DNA of 34,452 nt, taken from positions 1-34,452 of the forward strand of contig JAFDHD010000021.1 in NCBI GenBank assembly GCA_019308995.1, given 5' to 3'. The first letter of the stretch is position 1, and each line of letters starts with the position of its first letter. Of this stretch, positions 8,207 to 34,452 are shown piece by piece. The translations under genes were made by a program, and so were the position numbers. This DNA comes from Deltaproteobacteria bacterium. GTDB lineage: Bacteria; Desulfobacterota; Desulfarculia; Adiutricales; JAFDHD01. The notes below the pieces were generated by a model, which was given only the letters and a program-made list of their open reading frames with translations, was not told the DNA's origin and did not search any database.

Positions 8207-11134
8207 ATGAGCCAGGAAGAACTTGATAAAGATTCCGTATCATTTTTTGCAGGACTGGAAATTGGCGCTGTTTCCGTGAAATGGGTTCGCCGGACAAAAG
8301 ATGGAGAGACCATGGCTGAGGTGATCCAGCATGGAGGCAACCCCAGGCAAAAGGTCCGGGAACTTCTTGAACGCCATAAGTCTGGAAATAATGCGCGTCT
8401 CGTCGTGACCGGCCAGGCGGCCAGGCTTCTCCTGGACCTGCCTTACCGGGCCGAGACGGAATGCCTGGAAAAGGCCCTTGCGTTTCACGATCTTAAGCCC
8501 GACATTCTCCTGTCCCTGGGCGGGGAGACATTCAGCGTCTACCCCATGAAGGACGGCCTCATAAAAAATATTATTTCGACTTCCAAGTGCGCCGCAGGCA
8601 CCGGAGAATTCATTGTCCAGCAATTTCAAAGGATGGGCCTGTCTCTTAAGGAGGGCCTTAAGGCAAGTGAAAATGGCAGGATTATTCAGCTGGCCACCCG
8701 ATGTTCCGTGCACTGTAAGTCTGACGCCACTCATAAGCTCAACAAAGGTGAATGTCAACCCGGGGACATCGCAAAATCCCTGATCCATGATCTGGCGAAA
8801 AAGGTCAGCGAAATGGTTGACCTGGCCGGGTGGCCGACGCGCTTGATCGTGATTTCCGGCGGGGTGGCCAGGAACGAGCTCTTTGTTGAAAGCTTTCGCC
8901 GGTTCCACAAAGACGCAGAAGTGAAGGTGCTCCTGGAAAGTCCCTACCTTGAAACCTTCGGGGCCTCTCTTTACGCCTCGGAACTACCCCCCAAAACCAC
9001 CACCCCTTCAATCAACAAATGGATCAGGACTGCGGAGATCGAGTTCGAAACGCTCAAACCGCTCAAGGAGGCCGAGCCGCTCCTGGATTACAGGGTTCAG
9101 GCGAATACCCCTAAAGAAATCATTGAAGGCGCTTCTTATATCCTGAGCGTGGATGCCGGTTCAACCACCACCAAAGCGGTGCTGTTCAATGCGGCCGACG
9201 GTTCGGTGGGCGCGAGCTGTTATCTCCGTACTTTGGGGAATCCAGTTCTGGCGACAAAGAGGTGTCTGGAAGAACTCATCGAGCAGGTCGGGTTAAAATT
9301 CATAAAAATCATTCAAGCTGGCACGACCGGTTCAGCCAGGGAGATGGTTTCAGTGTATCTGGACAACTGCCTCACCTTTAATGAAATCCTGGCTCATGCC
9401 CGAGCGGCCTCCGAAGAAGTCCCGGACGTAGATACGGTCTTTGAAATCGGCGGCCAGGACTCGAAATTCATCTCTTTCCTGAAAGGGATTCCGATTGATT
9501 ACGCCATGAACGAGGGGTGTTCAGCCGGAACAGGCAGTTTTCTCGAGGAATCGGCCTCCGTGGACATGGGTGTCGCCATGGAGGAGATCAGCCGCCTGGC
9601 CGAAGAAAGCCTTTATCCGATTGCCTTTGGCGAACGGTGCGCCGCTTTTATCAATACTGATTTAAGGAACGCTCTGCAGCAGGGGGCCAGCCGGGAAGAT
9701 GTCATTGGCGGTCTGGTCTATTCTATTGCCGAGAATTATAACTCGCGCATTGTCGGTCCCCGGCACGTGGGGATGAATCTTCTCTTCCTGGGCGGCGTGG
9801 CCCTGAATAAGGCGGTGGCCCTGGCCATGGCCGCCCGGACGCAGCGCAAGATCGTGGTGCCTCCCCACCCCGAACTTATGGGGGCTGTGGGGATCGGTCT
9901 CATGACCAGGGATCTCCTGCGTCAGCATGACGCTCATGAGAAGGTTTATAAGCTTGAGGACCTCATCCAGGGCGAGCTGCAAGTCAAAGAAACCTTCCGC
10001 TGTAAAGCCTGCGAAAATAAATGCGAAATCCAGAGCATTGTCATCAGAGGCAAGAGTTACCCCTTTGGGGGGCTTTGTTCCAAATATGAAAAACTGCGTC
10101 ATGAAGGCGACCAGGTGAAAGAGGGCCGCGACCTGGTGGCTTTACGAAACAGGATCATGTTCGAGGAATTCGGGCCTCAACCCGTGGAAAACCGGCGCGG
10201 CGCCATCGGTCTGCCCATGGCGCTCACCACCCTTGAACTCTTTCCTTTTTATGTAAAACTCATCAACGCCTTGGGTTATGACGTCGTGCTTTCAAACCCT
10301 TCCAAGGCTGGAAACGCCAAAGCGACCTCAGCCATCTGTTATCCCTGCGAGGTTGTCCACGGGGCCGTCCATGACCTTTTGAACCGGGAGGTTGATTTTA
10401 TCCTTTTACCTCATGTCATTGAACTGGAAATACCTGAAGGTGCTCTTCACAGCTACACCTGTCCTTCGACGACCATTATACCGGATGTCATACGGGCAGC
10501 CTTTGAAGAGGCGGCCGATAAAATTCTCTCCCCCCATATTGCGCTTTCCAGGGACCTCATGGAAACGACCTTCAAAGAGATTGAGGAGATGGGCCTTTTA
10601 CTGGGGTTGGATGAGGACACGGCCAAAAAAGCGGGCCAGGAAGCCGTGTGGCACTATGAAAAGTTTAAGAAGGTCTATCGAGAACGAGCTAGAGAGGAAC
10701 TGGAAGCCTTGGCCAGGGAGCCAACGGTCGTCCTGGCGGGCCGGCCTTATTCTACCTGCTCCTCCGAGGTGAACCTGGCCTTGCCTCGCAAGATCACCAG
10801 TAGAGGCTTTCATGTCGTGCCGGTTGATATGCTGCCTCCATTAAGTGACGCTTTGCCTCAGCGTGATGTCTGGCACTTTACCCAACAGATCAGCAATGCT
10901 GTGAGGCATGTTCAGAATAATTCCAATTTATATATCTGCCTTCTTTCCTGTTTTTCCTGCGGACCTGACGCCAGCATGTATCACTACTTCCGCCAGACGC
11001 TCTCGGGGCAGACCTTCTGTTACCTTGAGATTGATTCACACACGGCCCATGCCGGTTTTGAGACGCGCGTGGGCGCGTTCCTTGATATTATTGAAGGGCG
11101 GCGGCGCAAGGGAGAAGACCAAAAACCGAAGTGA
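8207..11134 (+). CDS. Acyl-CoA dehydratase activase-type protein: two BcrAD/BadFG/HgdC ATPase domains plus DUF2229-like region
   Basis: A 975-residue protein related to the ATP-dependent electron donors of 2-hydroxyacyl-CoA dehydratases and benzoyl-CoA reductases. Two ASKHA ATPase domains occur in tandem. Domain 1 (about 14-260) has a degenerate phosphate loop (GLEIGAVSVK) but keeps KCAAGTGEF (Cys128), RCSVHCKSD (Cys166) and SGGVARN. Domain 2 (about 312-570) is canonical: SVDAGSTTTKAV, IGGQDSKF, NEGCSAGTGSF (Cys438), GERCAAF (Cys478), LGGVALN. In HgdC the two equivalent cysteines ligate a 4Fe-4S cluster at the dimer interface, so both domains could supply ligands. The remainder (about 598-960) starts with a cysteine cluster (CKACENKC) and has the CYPCEVVHG motif of the dehydratase-like DUF2229 region. 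ATG at 8207 has GAGG 8 bases upstream. The partner gene starts 23 bases after its stop. Confidence 0.85.
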   Translation: MSQEELDKDSVSFFAGLEIGAVSVKWVRRTKDGETMAEVIQHGGNPRQKVRELLERHKSGNNARLVVTGQAARLLLDLPYRAETECLEKALAFHDLKPDILLSLGGETFSVYPMKDGLIKNIISTSKCAAGTGEFIVQQFQRMGLSLKEGLKASENGRIIQLATRCSVHCKSDATHKLNKGECQPGDIAKSLIHDLAKKVSEMVDLAGWPTRLIVISGGVARNELFVESFRRFHKDAEVKVLLESPYLETFGASLYASELPPKTTTPSINKWIRTAEIEFETLKPLKEAEPLLDYRVQANTPKEIIEGASYILSVDAGSTTTKAVLFNAADGSVGASCYLRTLGNPVLATKRCLEELIEQVGLKFIKIIQAGTTGSAREMVSVYLDNCLTFNEILAHARAASEEVPDVDTVFEIGGQDSKFISFLKGIPIDYAMNEGCSAGTGSFLEESASVDMGVAMEEISRLAEESLYPIAFGERCAAFINTDLRNALQQGASREDVIGGLVYSIAENYNSRIVGPRHVGMNLLFLGGVALNKAVALAMAARTQRKIVVPPHPELMGAVGIGLMTRDLLRQHDAHEKVYKLEDLIQGELQVKETFRCKACENKCEIQSIVIRGKSYPFGGLCSKYEKLRHEGDQVKEGRDLVALRNRIMFEEFGPQPVENRRGAIGLPMALTTLELFPFYVKLINALGYDVVLSNPSKAGNAKATSAICYPCEVVHGAVHDLLNREVDFILLPHVIELEIPEGALHSYTCPSTTIIPDVIRAAFEEAADKILSPHIALSRDLMETTFKEIEEMGLLLGLDEDTAKKAGQEAVWHYEKFKKVYRERAREELEALAREPTVVLAGRPYSTCSSEVNLALPRKITSRGFHVVPVDMLPPLSDALPQRDVWHFTQQISNAVRHVQNNSNLYICLLSCFSCGPDASMYHYFRQTLSGQTFCYLEIDSHTAHAGFETRVGAFLDIIEGRRRKGEDQKPK

Positions 11135-11157
11135 GCTCGCGCCAAGGAGAAAAATCC

Positions 11158-12507
11158 ATGGATCAACCGCAAGCCAAACGGGCACGGCTTTCTGAAAAAT
11201 TTGACTACATTATAGCTAGCGATGGCCAGAGGGTGGAATATGACGACCCGCGCCTGGTGCATATCTGGACTATTGACCACAGCCGCTTTACCTTGCGTAT
11301 GATTGCTAAAGTTTATGAAAGAAGCGGGCGGAAATTCAGGTTCTGCGATGCGACCAGTACCGAGGTGATGCAGTACGCCAAAAAAGTGTGCTCAGGCCGG
11401 GAATGCATCCCCATGACCGCCATGGTCGGGGCCGTATTAAAAGATATTTACCACCAACGAAGCAAGGATGAAATATCAATTTACATCACCCTGGATCAGC
11501 AGGGGCCCTGCCAGAATGGCGCATGGCCCGTGGTTTGGGAGACTTTTGTCCAGCGGCTTAATTTAAAAAATGTCATCTCCGGCGTCATGCCCAGCCTGGC
11601 GAACAACCAGCTCGGGCTAGGGGATGAACACACCAGGACGGTGAACAAGTGTCTCCTTCTGGGAGATTCGTTCGAAGAGGCGGAAAATACGCTGAAATGC
11701 CTGGCGCAAGACAAAGATGCGGCTCTAAAGACGTTCGAAGCTGAGTTCGAACGATTCACTGCGTCTTTCAAACTGGGGGATAAGGCCATTGAACCGGCTT
11801 TAAACGCATGGGCGGAAAAGATGGCCCAAATACCTCTTAAGGCTTCAGTCGAGGAAACCCCAAAGGTGTTGATCTTCGGAGGGTTAAATCTACTGTTTGT
11901 CCATTATCCGGCCACCAGTTATTTTATCGAACAGGGTATCCTTCCCAAGGTGGTTGATTATGCCGAAGGCTCCTGCTGGATAGAAGCGGAAAACCTTGTC
12001 AGATACGGCTTTAAAAAGGGTCTGATCACGCCAAAGGAACACTTCTCCTTCAAGCCCCCGAAAAAAGATAAAAAAGAGGCCTTGACTGCGAGAAAGGCCA
12101 GGTTAGGCGTCTTTCTCATTGAATCCCTGCGCAAGCAGTTTCGCGAAATTATGGAAAAATCAGGCCTCCTGTTTGACGAGCCCATCCCCTTTTCCGAACT
12201 GGCCCAGGAAGGCCATCAGTATGTTTCCTATAATGGAATGACTGAAACCTCCATCATCACCGGGAGGTACGTCTGCTCCATCAAAAGCGGCTTATATGAC
12301 GGCCTGGTAAATCTGGGTTCGTTTAACTGCCAGCCCGCTATGAACTCACAAGCGATCATCCGGCCTCTGGCCAATAGAAGCGATGTTCCCTATGTCGCTA
12401 TTGATTGTGAGGGGCCCTGGATATCCACCAACCAAAAGAGACTCCTCGAAACCATCGCCGTACAGGCGAAAAGGATTCGAAAAAAGAAAAATGCAAGGCG
12501 TTCTTGA
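11158..12507 (+). CDS. 2-hydroxyacyl-CoA dehydratase-like protein, partner of the activase
   Basis: A 449-residue protein resembling the C-terminal portion of the very large (about 1400 residues) activase/dehydratase fusion proteins. Supporting motifs are CSGRECIPMTAMVGAVL near residue 85, which matches the GKECLPC-type motif, and ITLDQQGPCQNG, which matches the FMPTAQGPCRFG-type motif of those proteins. A weakly conserved later part has FSELAQEGHQYVSYNGM and ends in a Lys/Arg-rich tail. ATG at 11158 is preceded by AAGGAG (11144-11149) at 8 bases; the frame also opens with a GTG at 11131 overlapping the previous stop, which is less likely. Adjacent placement and combined length (975+449) suggest the two chains form one functional unit. 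The exact substrate is unknown. Confidence 0.7.
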   Translation: MDQPQAKRARLSEKFDYIIASDGQRVEYDDPRLVHIWTIDHSRFTLRMIAKVYERSGRKFRFCDATSTEVMQYAKKVCSGRECIPMTAMVGAVLKDIYHQRSKDEISIYITLDQQGPCQNGAWPVVWETFVQRLNLKNVISGVMPSLANNQLGLGDEHTRTVNKCLLLGDSFEEAENTLKCLAQDKDAALKTFEAEFERFTASFKLGDKAIEPALNAWAEKMAQIPLKASVEETPKVLIFGGLNLLFVHYPATSYFIEQGILPKVVDYAEGSCWIEAENLVRYGFKKGLITPKEHFSFKPPKKDKKEALTARKARLGVFLIESLRKQFREIMEKSGLLFDEPIPFSELAQEGHQYVSYNGMTETSIITGRYVCSIKSGLYDGLVNLGSFNCQPAMNSQAIIRPLANRSDVPYVAIDCEGPWISTNQKRLLETIAVQAKRIRKKKNARRS

Positions 12508-33754: not shown

Positions 33755-33997
33755 AAACAAAGGGCCTGACTGCCGAGAAACTACAGGTTATGTATAATAT
33801 TTCCCGCGAAGATAGGACGAGTTTTCATCTAGTAGCGAGAGGCGGATTCTTCTTTTGGCTCACCCTGCATCGAAAATGAGTGGCTGGGTAGAAGAGATTA
33901 AAAACCGAAAGCAACTGCTGAAAAACTAAGAGGGAAAAACTGTCACGGACAAGTGGAAGGCTGATCTTTTTCCGGTGAACTCACCGGCCTAGACGCC
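33755..33997. other. Intergenic region between MATE and selenoprotein genes
   Basis: About 240 bases between convergent genes without a recognisable gene. A short hairpin, CCGGTG and CACCGG around a 4-base loop (33972-33987), lies just past the selenoprotein stop; no T run follows it on the minus strand, so it is not a clear terminator. Confidence 0.5.
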
Positions 33998-34204
33998 TCA
34001 GGTGCCTCCCCCATACCCAATAGTGACCTTGCCGCCCTCCACGATAACCGGTACGGACCTTTGGCCCTGGCTGTGCTCAAGCATCTCCTCTAGTTTTTCC
34101 GGGTCCTTTTTTACGTCATAGTACTCAGCATTGGAACCATAAGCCGACCTGGCTTCATCGGTATGAGGTCAACCGGATTTCCCGTAGATGATGACATTGC
34201 TCAT
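33998..34204 (-). CDS. Glutaredoxin-like selenoprotein (UXX-star type), in-frame UGA read as selenocysteine
   Basis: A 68-residue thioredoxin-fold protein split by an in-frame TGA at codon 12, so plain ORF callers miss it. With the TGA as Sec, the N-terminus reads MSNVIIYGKSG-U-PHTDEAR: a glutaredoxin active site in which Sec takes the place of the N-terminal cysteine (U-P-H-T against the usual C-P-[YF]-[CT]). It continues with YYDVKKDPEKLEEML, then RSVPVIVEGG, the TVP-type cis-proline motif, and ends GYGGGT before a true TGA stop at 33998-34000. ATG at 34204 is preceded by AGGAGG at 8 bases. A SECIS-like hairpin follows the Sec codon. This fits the small Uxx-star glutaredoxin-like (seleno)protein family of anaerobes, recognised from memory. 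A thiol-disulfide or seleno-redox role in the cytoplasm is probable; partners unknown. Confidence 0.85.
34136..34162 (-). promoter_or_regulatory. Bacterial SECIS element
   Basis: Just downstream of the UGA (34169-34171), AAGCC (34151-34155) pairs with GGCTT (34141-34145) around the five-base loop AGGTC (34146-34150), with an outer ACC/GGT pair (34160-34162, 34136-34138). A GGU-type apical loop 18 bases after the UGA is what SelB recognises in bacteria (usual range about 16-37 bases). It overlaps the coding sequence, as in other bacterial selenoprotein genes. Confidence 0.75.
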
Positions 34205-34452
34205 CACGCTTTCCTCCTTTGGAATTTTCTCCATCAGTAACAGGTCTGATATGCAGCGCCTTGGCAGCCTTTTTGGCTGGGATTTAAATTTAATGTATCT
34301 TATCATAAGGAATCCTGCCAGTCCATCTGCTTCGAATGGAGCCATTTGCGTTGTAACGGAATTTTCTTATTTAGCCTCATATATTTCCACTTTTGAGGAA
34401 GTGATAATGGCTCGATCCTGTTCTGGGTCAGAATAAAATTAAGGTTTCGAGG
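34205..34452. other. Upstream region of the selenoprotein gene, to window end
   Basis: No gene seen. A forward frame at 34188-34436 overlaps the selenoprotein start on the opposite strand, has no ribosome site and no family features, so it is not called. No clear promoter consensus found for the minus-strand selenoprotein gene. Confidence 0.5.

Follow-up and report, generated by a model that had tools for sequence, protein, structure and literature searches.

The 'UXX-star selenoprotein family 1', for which a curated NCBI model exists (NF041114), appears in a 2026 review as 'distant Grx-like protein 1', with the motif UxxT and two selenocysteine (Sec) residues per protein (PMC13188914); the review credits the Global Ocean Sampling survey (PMC2398784) for this family. 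UXX-star family 2 is given in the same review as a single-Sec family with the motif GxGU, and the Sec residues of UXX-star proteins may, according to this review, bind metals or unknown substrates (PMC13188914). In our own reading, the name UXX-star appears to stand for a Sec-x-x-stop ending, which fits the UGV-TAG ending described below. The limits given for the bacterial SECIS hairpin (bSECIS) are a small loop, a G in the first two loop positions and a loop located 16-37 nt from the UGA (PMC13188914). Here we describe a gene with these features in a stretch of 34,452 nucleotides (hereafter the window; contig JAFDHD010000021.1) from a member of the Desulfobacterota.

Gene model and family assignment

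On the minus strand, the frame that opens with the ATG at 34204 reads MSNVIIYGKSG-TGA-PHTDEARSAYG...RSVPVIVEGGKVTIGYGGGT-TGA. An earlier note on this DNA had described it as a frame of 68 codons that is interrupted once and has its 3' end at 33998. The start codon with AGGAGG ahead of it, the TGA at codon 12 in the context KSG-TGA-PHT, the cis-Pro-type segment RSVPVIV and the glycine-rich end, all of which that note had listed, are seen in the sequence. The frame is not interrupted only once, however: it has another TGA, at 33998-34000, that is likewise a sense codon and is followed by GGC GTC TAG (34000-33989, counted from the TGA), so that the ending is U-G-V-stop. Given that the frame runs on past the second TGA, the gene occupies 33989-34204 and comprises 71 codons with a TAG stop, and with the C-terminal TGA as a second Sec codon, the predicted protein has 71 residues and two Sec, not 68 and one. 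The gene model is thus corrected by the addition of a second Sec and of a true stop 9 bases further on. The features of the locus are the following:

33989..34204, minus strand: uxx-star gene, 71 codons plus TAG (NF041114, 110.4 bits, cut-off 72)
34205..34220, minus strand: ribosome binding region AAAGGAGGAAAGCGTG, preceding the ATG
34169..34171, minus strand: TGA codon 12, putative Sec in UPHT, where glutaredoxins have their active site (of 77 distinct family loci, 65 have TGA and 12 have Cys here)
34141..34155, minus strand: bSECIS-type hairpin 1, AAGCC-AGGTC-GGCTT, loop 18 nt past the first TGA, inside the coding frame
33998..34000, minus strand: TGA codon 69, putative C-terminal Sec, the U of U-x-x-stop (TGA in 77 of 77 family loci)
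33992..33997, minus strand: codons 70-71, Gly-Val, 3' of the C-terminal Sec (all 69 loci counted have Val or Ile at codon 71)
33989..33991, minus strand: TAG, the true stop codon, read from the sequence
33972..33987, minus strand: bSECIS-type hairpin 2, CCGGTG-AGTT-CACCGG, loop 16 nt past the second TGA, wholly 3' of the TAG

With TGA translated as U, the product is MSNVIIYGKSGUPHTDEARSAYGSNAEYYDVKKDPEKLEEMLEHSQGQRSVPVIVEGGKVTIGYGGGTUGV*, which contains no Cys residue. In profile searches, for which TGA was translated as Cys, the protein matched NF041114 with 110.4 bits against the curated cut-off of 72 over residues 4-69, in agreement with the UXX-star name proposed in the earlier note. The broader model NF041212 yielded 80.1 bits (cut-off 66), with an alignment that reaches residue 69, the second TGA, and the Pfam glutaredoxin domain (PF00462) yielded 38.5 bits. 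The UxxT motif of the protein, U12-P-H-T, coincides with the active site of glutaredoxins, and the frame ends with a second Sec codon, two residues and a stop, the same ending as among its relatives. The nearest sequence, that of L048/L028, is about 85% identical to the window gene. On the strength of these sequence comparisons, we consider it nearly certain that the locus is a two-Sec gene of UXX-star family 1, a level of confidence that covers the gene and its family rather than its biochemical role; Sec would presumably be inserted at both codons 12 and 69. Since the curated model NF041114 covers exactly this family, the gene is within reach of annotation pipelines that employ this model.

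Predicted fold, conservation and candidate roles

The structure predicted by AlphaFold2 from a 59-member alignment (pLDDT 92.5) has the glutaredoxin topology, with secondary structure elements in the order E-H-E-H-E-E; its best matches in the PDB are the glutaredoxins 3ic4, 4tr1 and 4tr0, and sequence searches with the family profile recover E. coli glutaredoxin 3 and NrdH. A thioredoxin/glutaredoxin fold with a cis-Pro loop, as the earlier note had surmised, is accordingly indicated both by the Pfam match and by the structural matches (38.5 bits; 3ic4 and 4tr1). In the model, Sec12 is placed where helix 1 begins, the site of the nucleophilic Cys in glutaredoxins, and Sec69 on a short tail that follows the last strand. 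Because the chain ends directly after this strand, the final glutaredoxin helix is absent, and the tail GGGT-U-GV takes its place. The active site conforms neither to CxxC nor to CxxS, being UPHT in a protein devoid of Cys.

Relatives were found in one congener and one further genome of its order, as well as in metagenome assemblies assigned to Deltaproteobacteria, Vicinamibacteria, Acidobacteria and Methylomirabilota; a survey of the phylum yielded matches above the cut-off in 100 of 395 genomes, and the viral contigs that were searched contained no relative. Codons were counted in 77 distinct parsed loci, which are mostly from the same phylum and represent the fetched loci rather than every match. 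Of these, 65 carry TGA at both codon 12 and the C-terminal site and the other 12 combine Cys at codon 12 with the C-terminal TGA, so that the homologues which the earlier note had proposed to look for, bearing either Sec or Cys as residue 12, do exist and Sec at this codon gains support as the probable reading. Cys at the C-terminal Sec site was seen in none of the 77 family loci. This pattern suggests that the family can dispense with the active-site Sec but not with the C-terminal one, which would be a testable clue to the function of UXX-star family 1. With Sec and Cys pooled in the count, the invariant or nearly invariant columns include I6, G8, K9, 12, P13, T15, A18, R19, P52, G63, G66, G67 and 69.

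Several variants were noted along with these counts. A subgroup of six loci (L098, L100, L101, L104, L105 and L106) has an insert ahead of the C-terminal Sec, e.g., GFAGDASLRGGITLFGGTU, and more than two residues in the tail, e.g., UPVK. One locus (L079) encodes two different UXX-star genes in tandem (1070-1276 and 1495-1701), with two TGAs each. Five loci (L144, L145, L146, L147 and L148) encode glutaredoxin-like proteins with TGA in UPYC or UPHC and without a C-terminal Sec, and form a separate selenoprotein group; one of these, L144, which seemed to have Cys at the C-terminal site, was rejected as such a case, being another glutaredoxin-like selenoprotein outside the UXX-star family.

With respect to the role of the protein, a glutaredoxin fold devoid of cysteine would have Sec12 as its nucleophile and Sec69 as the partner, the two possibly forming a diselenide/diselenol redox pair in place of the customary CxxC; alternatively, both Sec residues may serve as ligands of a soft metal or metalloid. 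We give the redox-pair role about an even chance, which puts it slightly ahead of the metal role owing to the glutaredoxin fold and to position 12, where Sec and Cys are interchanged. A more specific proposal, offered tentatively, is that the two Sec of this cysteine-free protein make up an all-selenium (diselenide) redox centre within the glutaredoxin fold, in which the C-terminal Sec is the partner that cannot be replaced and Cys can substitute for the active-site Sec.

Binding of a metal or metalloid by two selenolates, instead of redox activity, is compatible with the two-Sec gene and refers to the same double selenoprotein. Such binding has been proposed for the Sec residues of UXX-star proteins (PMC13188914), and both the lack of a resolving Cys and the unusual C-terminal Sec, replaced by Cys in none of the examined loci, speak for it, but the protein has a glutaredoxin fold with Sec exactly at the nucleophile position and has kept the cis-proline loop, and a metal-resistance gene was not found adjacent to the gene in the window, nor commonly in its relatives. 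We regard this role as a serious possibility, although somewhat against the balance of the evidence.

The uxx-star gene lies near a gene for a MATE exporter in the window, and near genes for a cupin, a thiolase and a MATE exporter in L048. Among 70 neighbours of the other loci, the commonest were NDK (6) and HhH-GPD (5), which gave no firm functional lead. Elsewhere in the window, positions 8207-11134 encode a protein of 975 residues with a BadF/BcrA-type ATPase domain and DUF2229 (CoA enzyme activase), and the next frame (11131-12507) has no Pfam matches.

Probable decoding of the two TGA codons

In the mechanism that we favour, the chromosomal gene would give rise to a 71-residue selenoprotein of glutaredoxin fold, both UGAs being read as Sec by the SelB and tRNA-Sec of the host; the first Sec would be directed by the hairpin inside the coding frame and the second by the hairpin entirely past the TAG stop. 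Both hairpins in the window fall within the bSECIS limits (AGGTC at 18 nt and AGTT at 16 nt), and the gene is a clean example of a bacterial SECIS hairpin located wholly past the stop codon.

The main alternative for the gene itself is that Sec occurs at codon 12 only, the glutaredoxin Cys site, and that the TGA at 33998 is an ordinary stop, as TGA normally is and as the frame reported earlier has it. This reading is contradicted by several lines of evidence, namely the NF041114 alignment that extends through codon 69, the retention of the terminal TGA in the loci with Cys12, the two Sec in the published family (PMC13188914), the x-Val/Ile-stop past the TGA that is kept with synonymous change in distant relatives, and the SECIS-type hairpin that follows the terminal TGA in 68 of 69 loci. 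As for the codons past the second TGA, a stop is located exactly three codons further on in 69 loci (TGA 33, TAG 18 and TAA 18, a third codon TGA being counted as a stop by assumption). Codon 71 encodes Val or Ile in all 69 (GTC 22, GTT 17, GTG 14, GTA 8 and ATH 8), and codon 70 mostly Gly, for which all four codons are used; this conservation through varied synonymous codons implies protein-level constraint past the second TGA.

The loop of the hairpin past the second TGA starts 15-25 nt (mostly 16-20 nt) downstream, and the stem sequences vary widely among the loci with the pairing kept. The median stem score is 19 at the second TGA vs 8 in stretches of the same loci 100-200 nt downstream (Mann-Whitney p 7e-30, a value that ignores kinship and is too small because the loci are related, so that their independence is overstated). 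An independent test of folding energy yielded a mean z of -1.80 at the second TGA vs -0.40 and -0.03 further downstream. On this evidence, a single Sec at codon 12 is very improbable.

The stem that the earlier note had pointed out past the codon-12 TGA is indeed present, as a 5-bp hairpin with the loop AGGTC that starts 18 nt downstream. A strict hairpin at the same spacing past codon 12 was found in 66% of the U12 loci, 25% of the C12 loci and 15% of in-gene controls. A scan of the window for TGA codons with a comparable hairpin gave 24 candidates, 14 of which outscore the codon-12 TGA on stem strength, and an Rfam search of the window gave no matches. Taken by itself, the codon-12 hairpin provides weak evidence; the case is made by the family match and by the conservation. 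Conservation persists across the codon-12 TGA, as the earlier note had expected of a genuine gene: in codons 13-68, the window gene and its nearest relative differ by 18 synonymous and 10 replacement changes. That a glutaredoxin gene was broken by chance TGAs, through decay or sequencing error, might be suggested by two TGAs in an otherwise open frame of a draft assembly in 228 contigs, but this explanation is refuted by the same two TGA codons, which recur in relatives from several genera as well as from other classes and phyla, along with protein-level constraint on the remaining frame, and its probability is negligible.

The assembly (3.78 Mb, 228 contigs, 96.5% complete) also contains the Sec genes that the earlier note had named for a check: selA (626 bits), selB (374 bits), selD (368 bits) and a tRNA-Sec with the anticodon TCA (77.6 bits), all above their cut-offs. 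Given the presence of these four genes, the organism most likely decodes UGA as Sec. The selD gene (L022; contig C28:12814-13734 of the same genome, minus strand) has an in-frame TGA at GAG-U-ASK, so that selenophosphate synthetase is likely a selenoprotein itself; a frame for a LysR-type regulator lies near it on the same strand. The presence of selA does not separate genomes of this Sec-rich phylum with the family (23 of 25) from those without it (19 of 25). Another genome of the phylum, assembled as a single contig and 99% complete (G099; loci L061, L149 and L151), has a two-TGA UXX-star gene, tRNA-Sec and SelB; in this genome, SelA was not found by TIGR00474 or PF03841, the only match being a SepSecS-type one of 19 bits.

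Comparison with known selenoproteins

The Sec glutaredoxins (Grx, UxxC) and the ordinary glutaredoxins (PF00462) share with the window protein the fold and the position of the active-site Sec or Cys. Unlike both, the window protein has UPHT without a resolving Cys, and the last helix is absent, with a C-terminal Sec instead. UXX-star family 2 (NF041211) and the HUGP/GUXX-star fusion (NF045501) have the same domain and, by name, the U-x-x-stop ending, but the window gene scores below the cut-offs of both models (52.5 bits vs 100 and 42.3 bits vs 325, respectively). With UXX-star family 1 (NF041114), it has in common the length, the UxxT motif, the C-terminal Sec with two residues between it and the stop, and the glutaredoxin-like sequence; it scores 38 bits above the curated cut-off and differs by ordinary sequence divergence only. 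The window gene is an ordinary member of this already described double-selenoprotein family.
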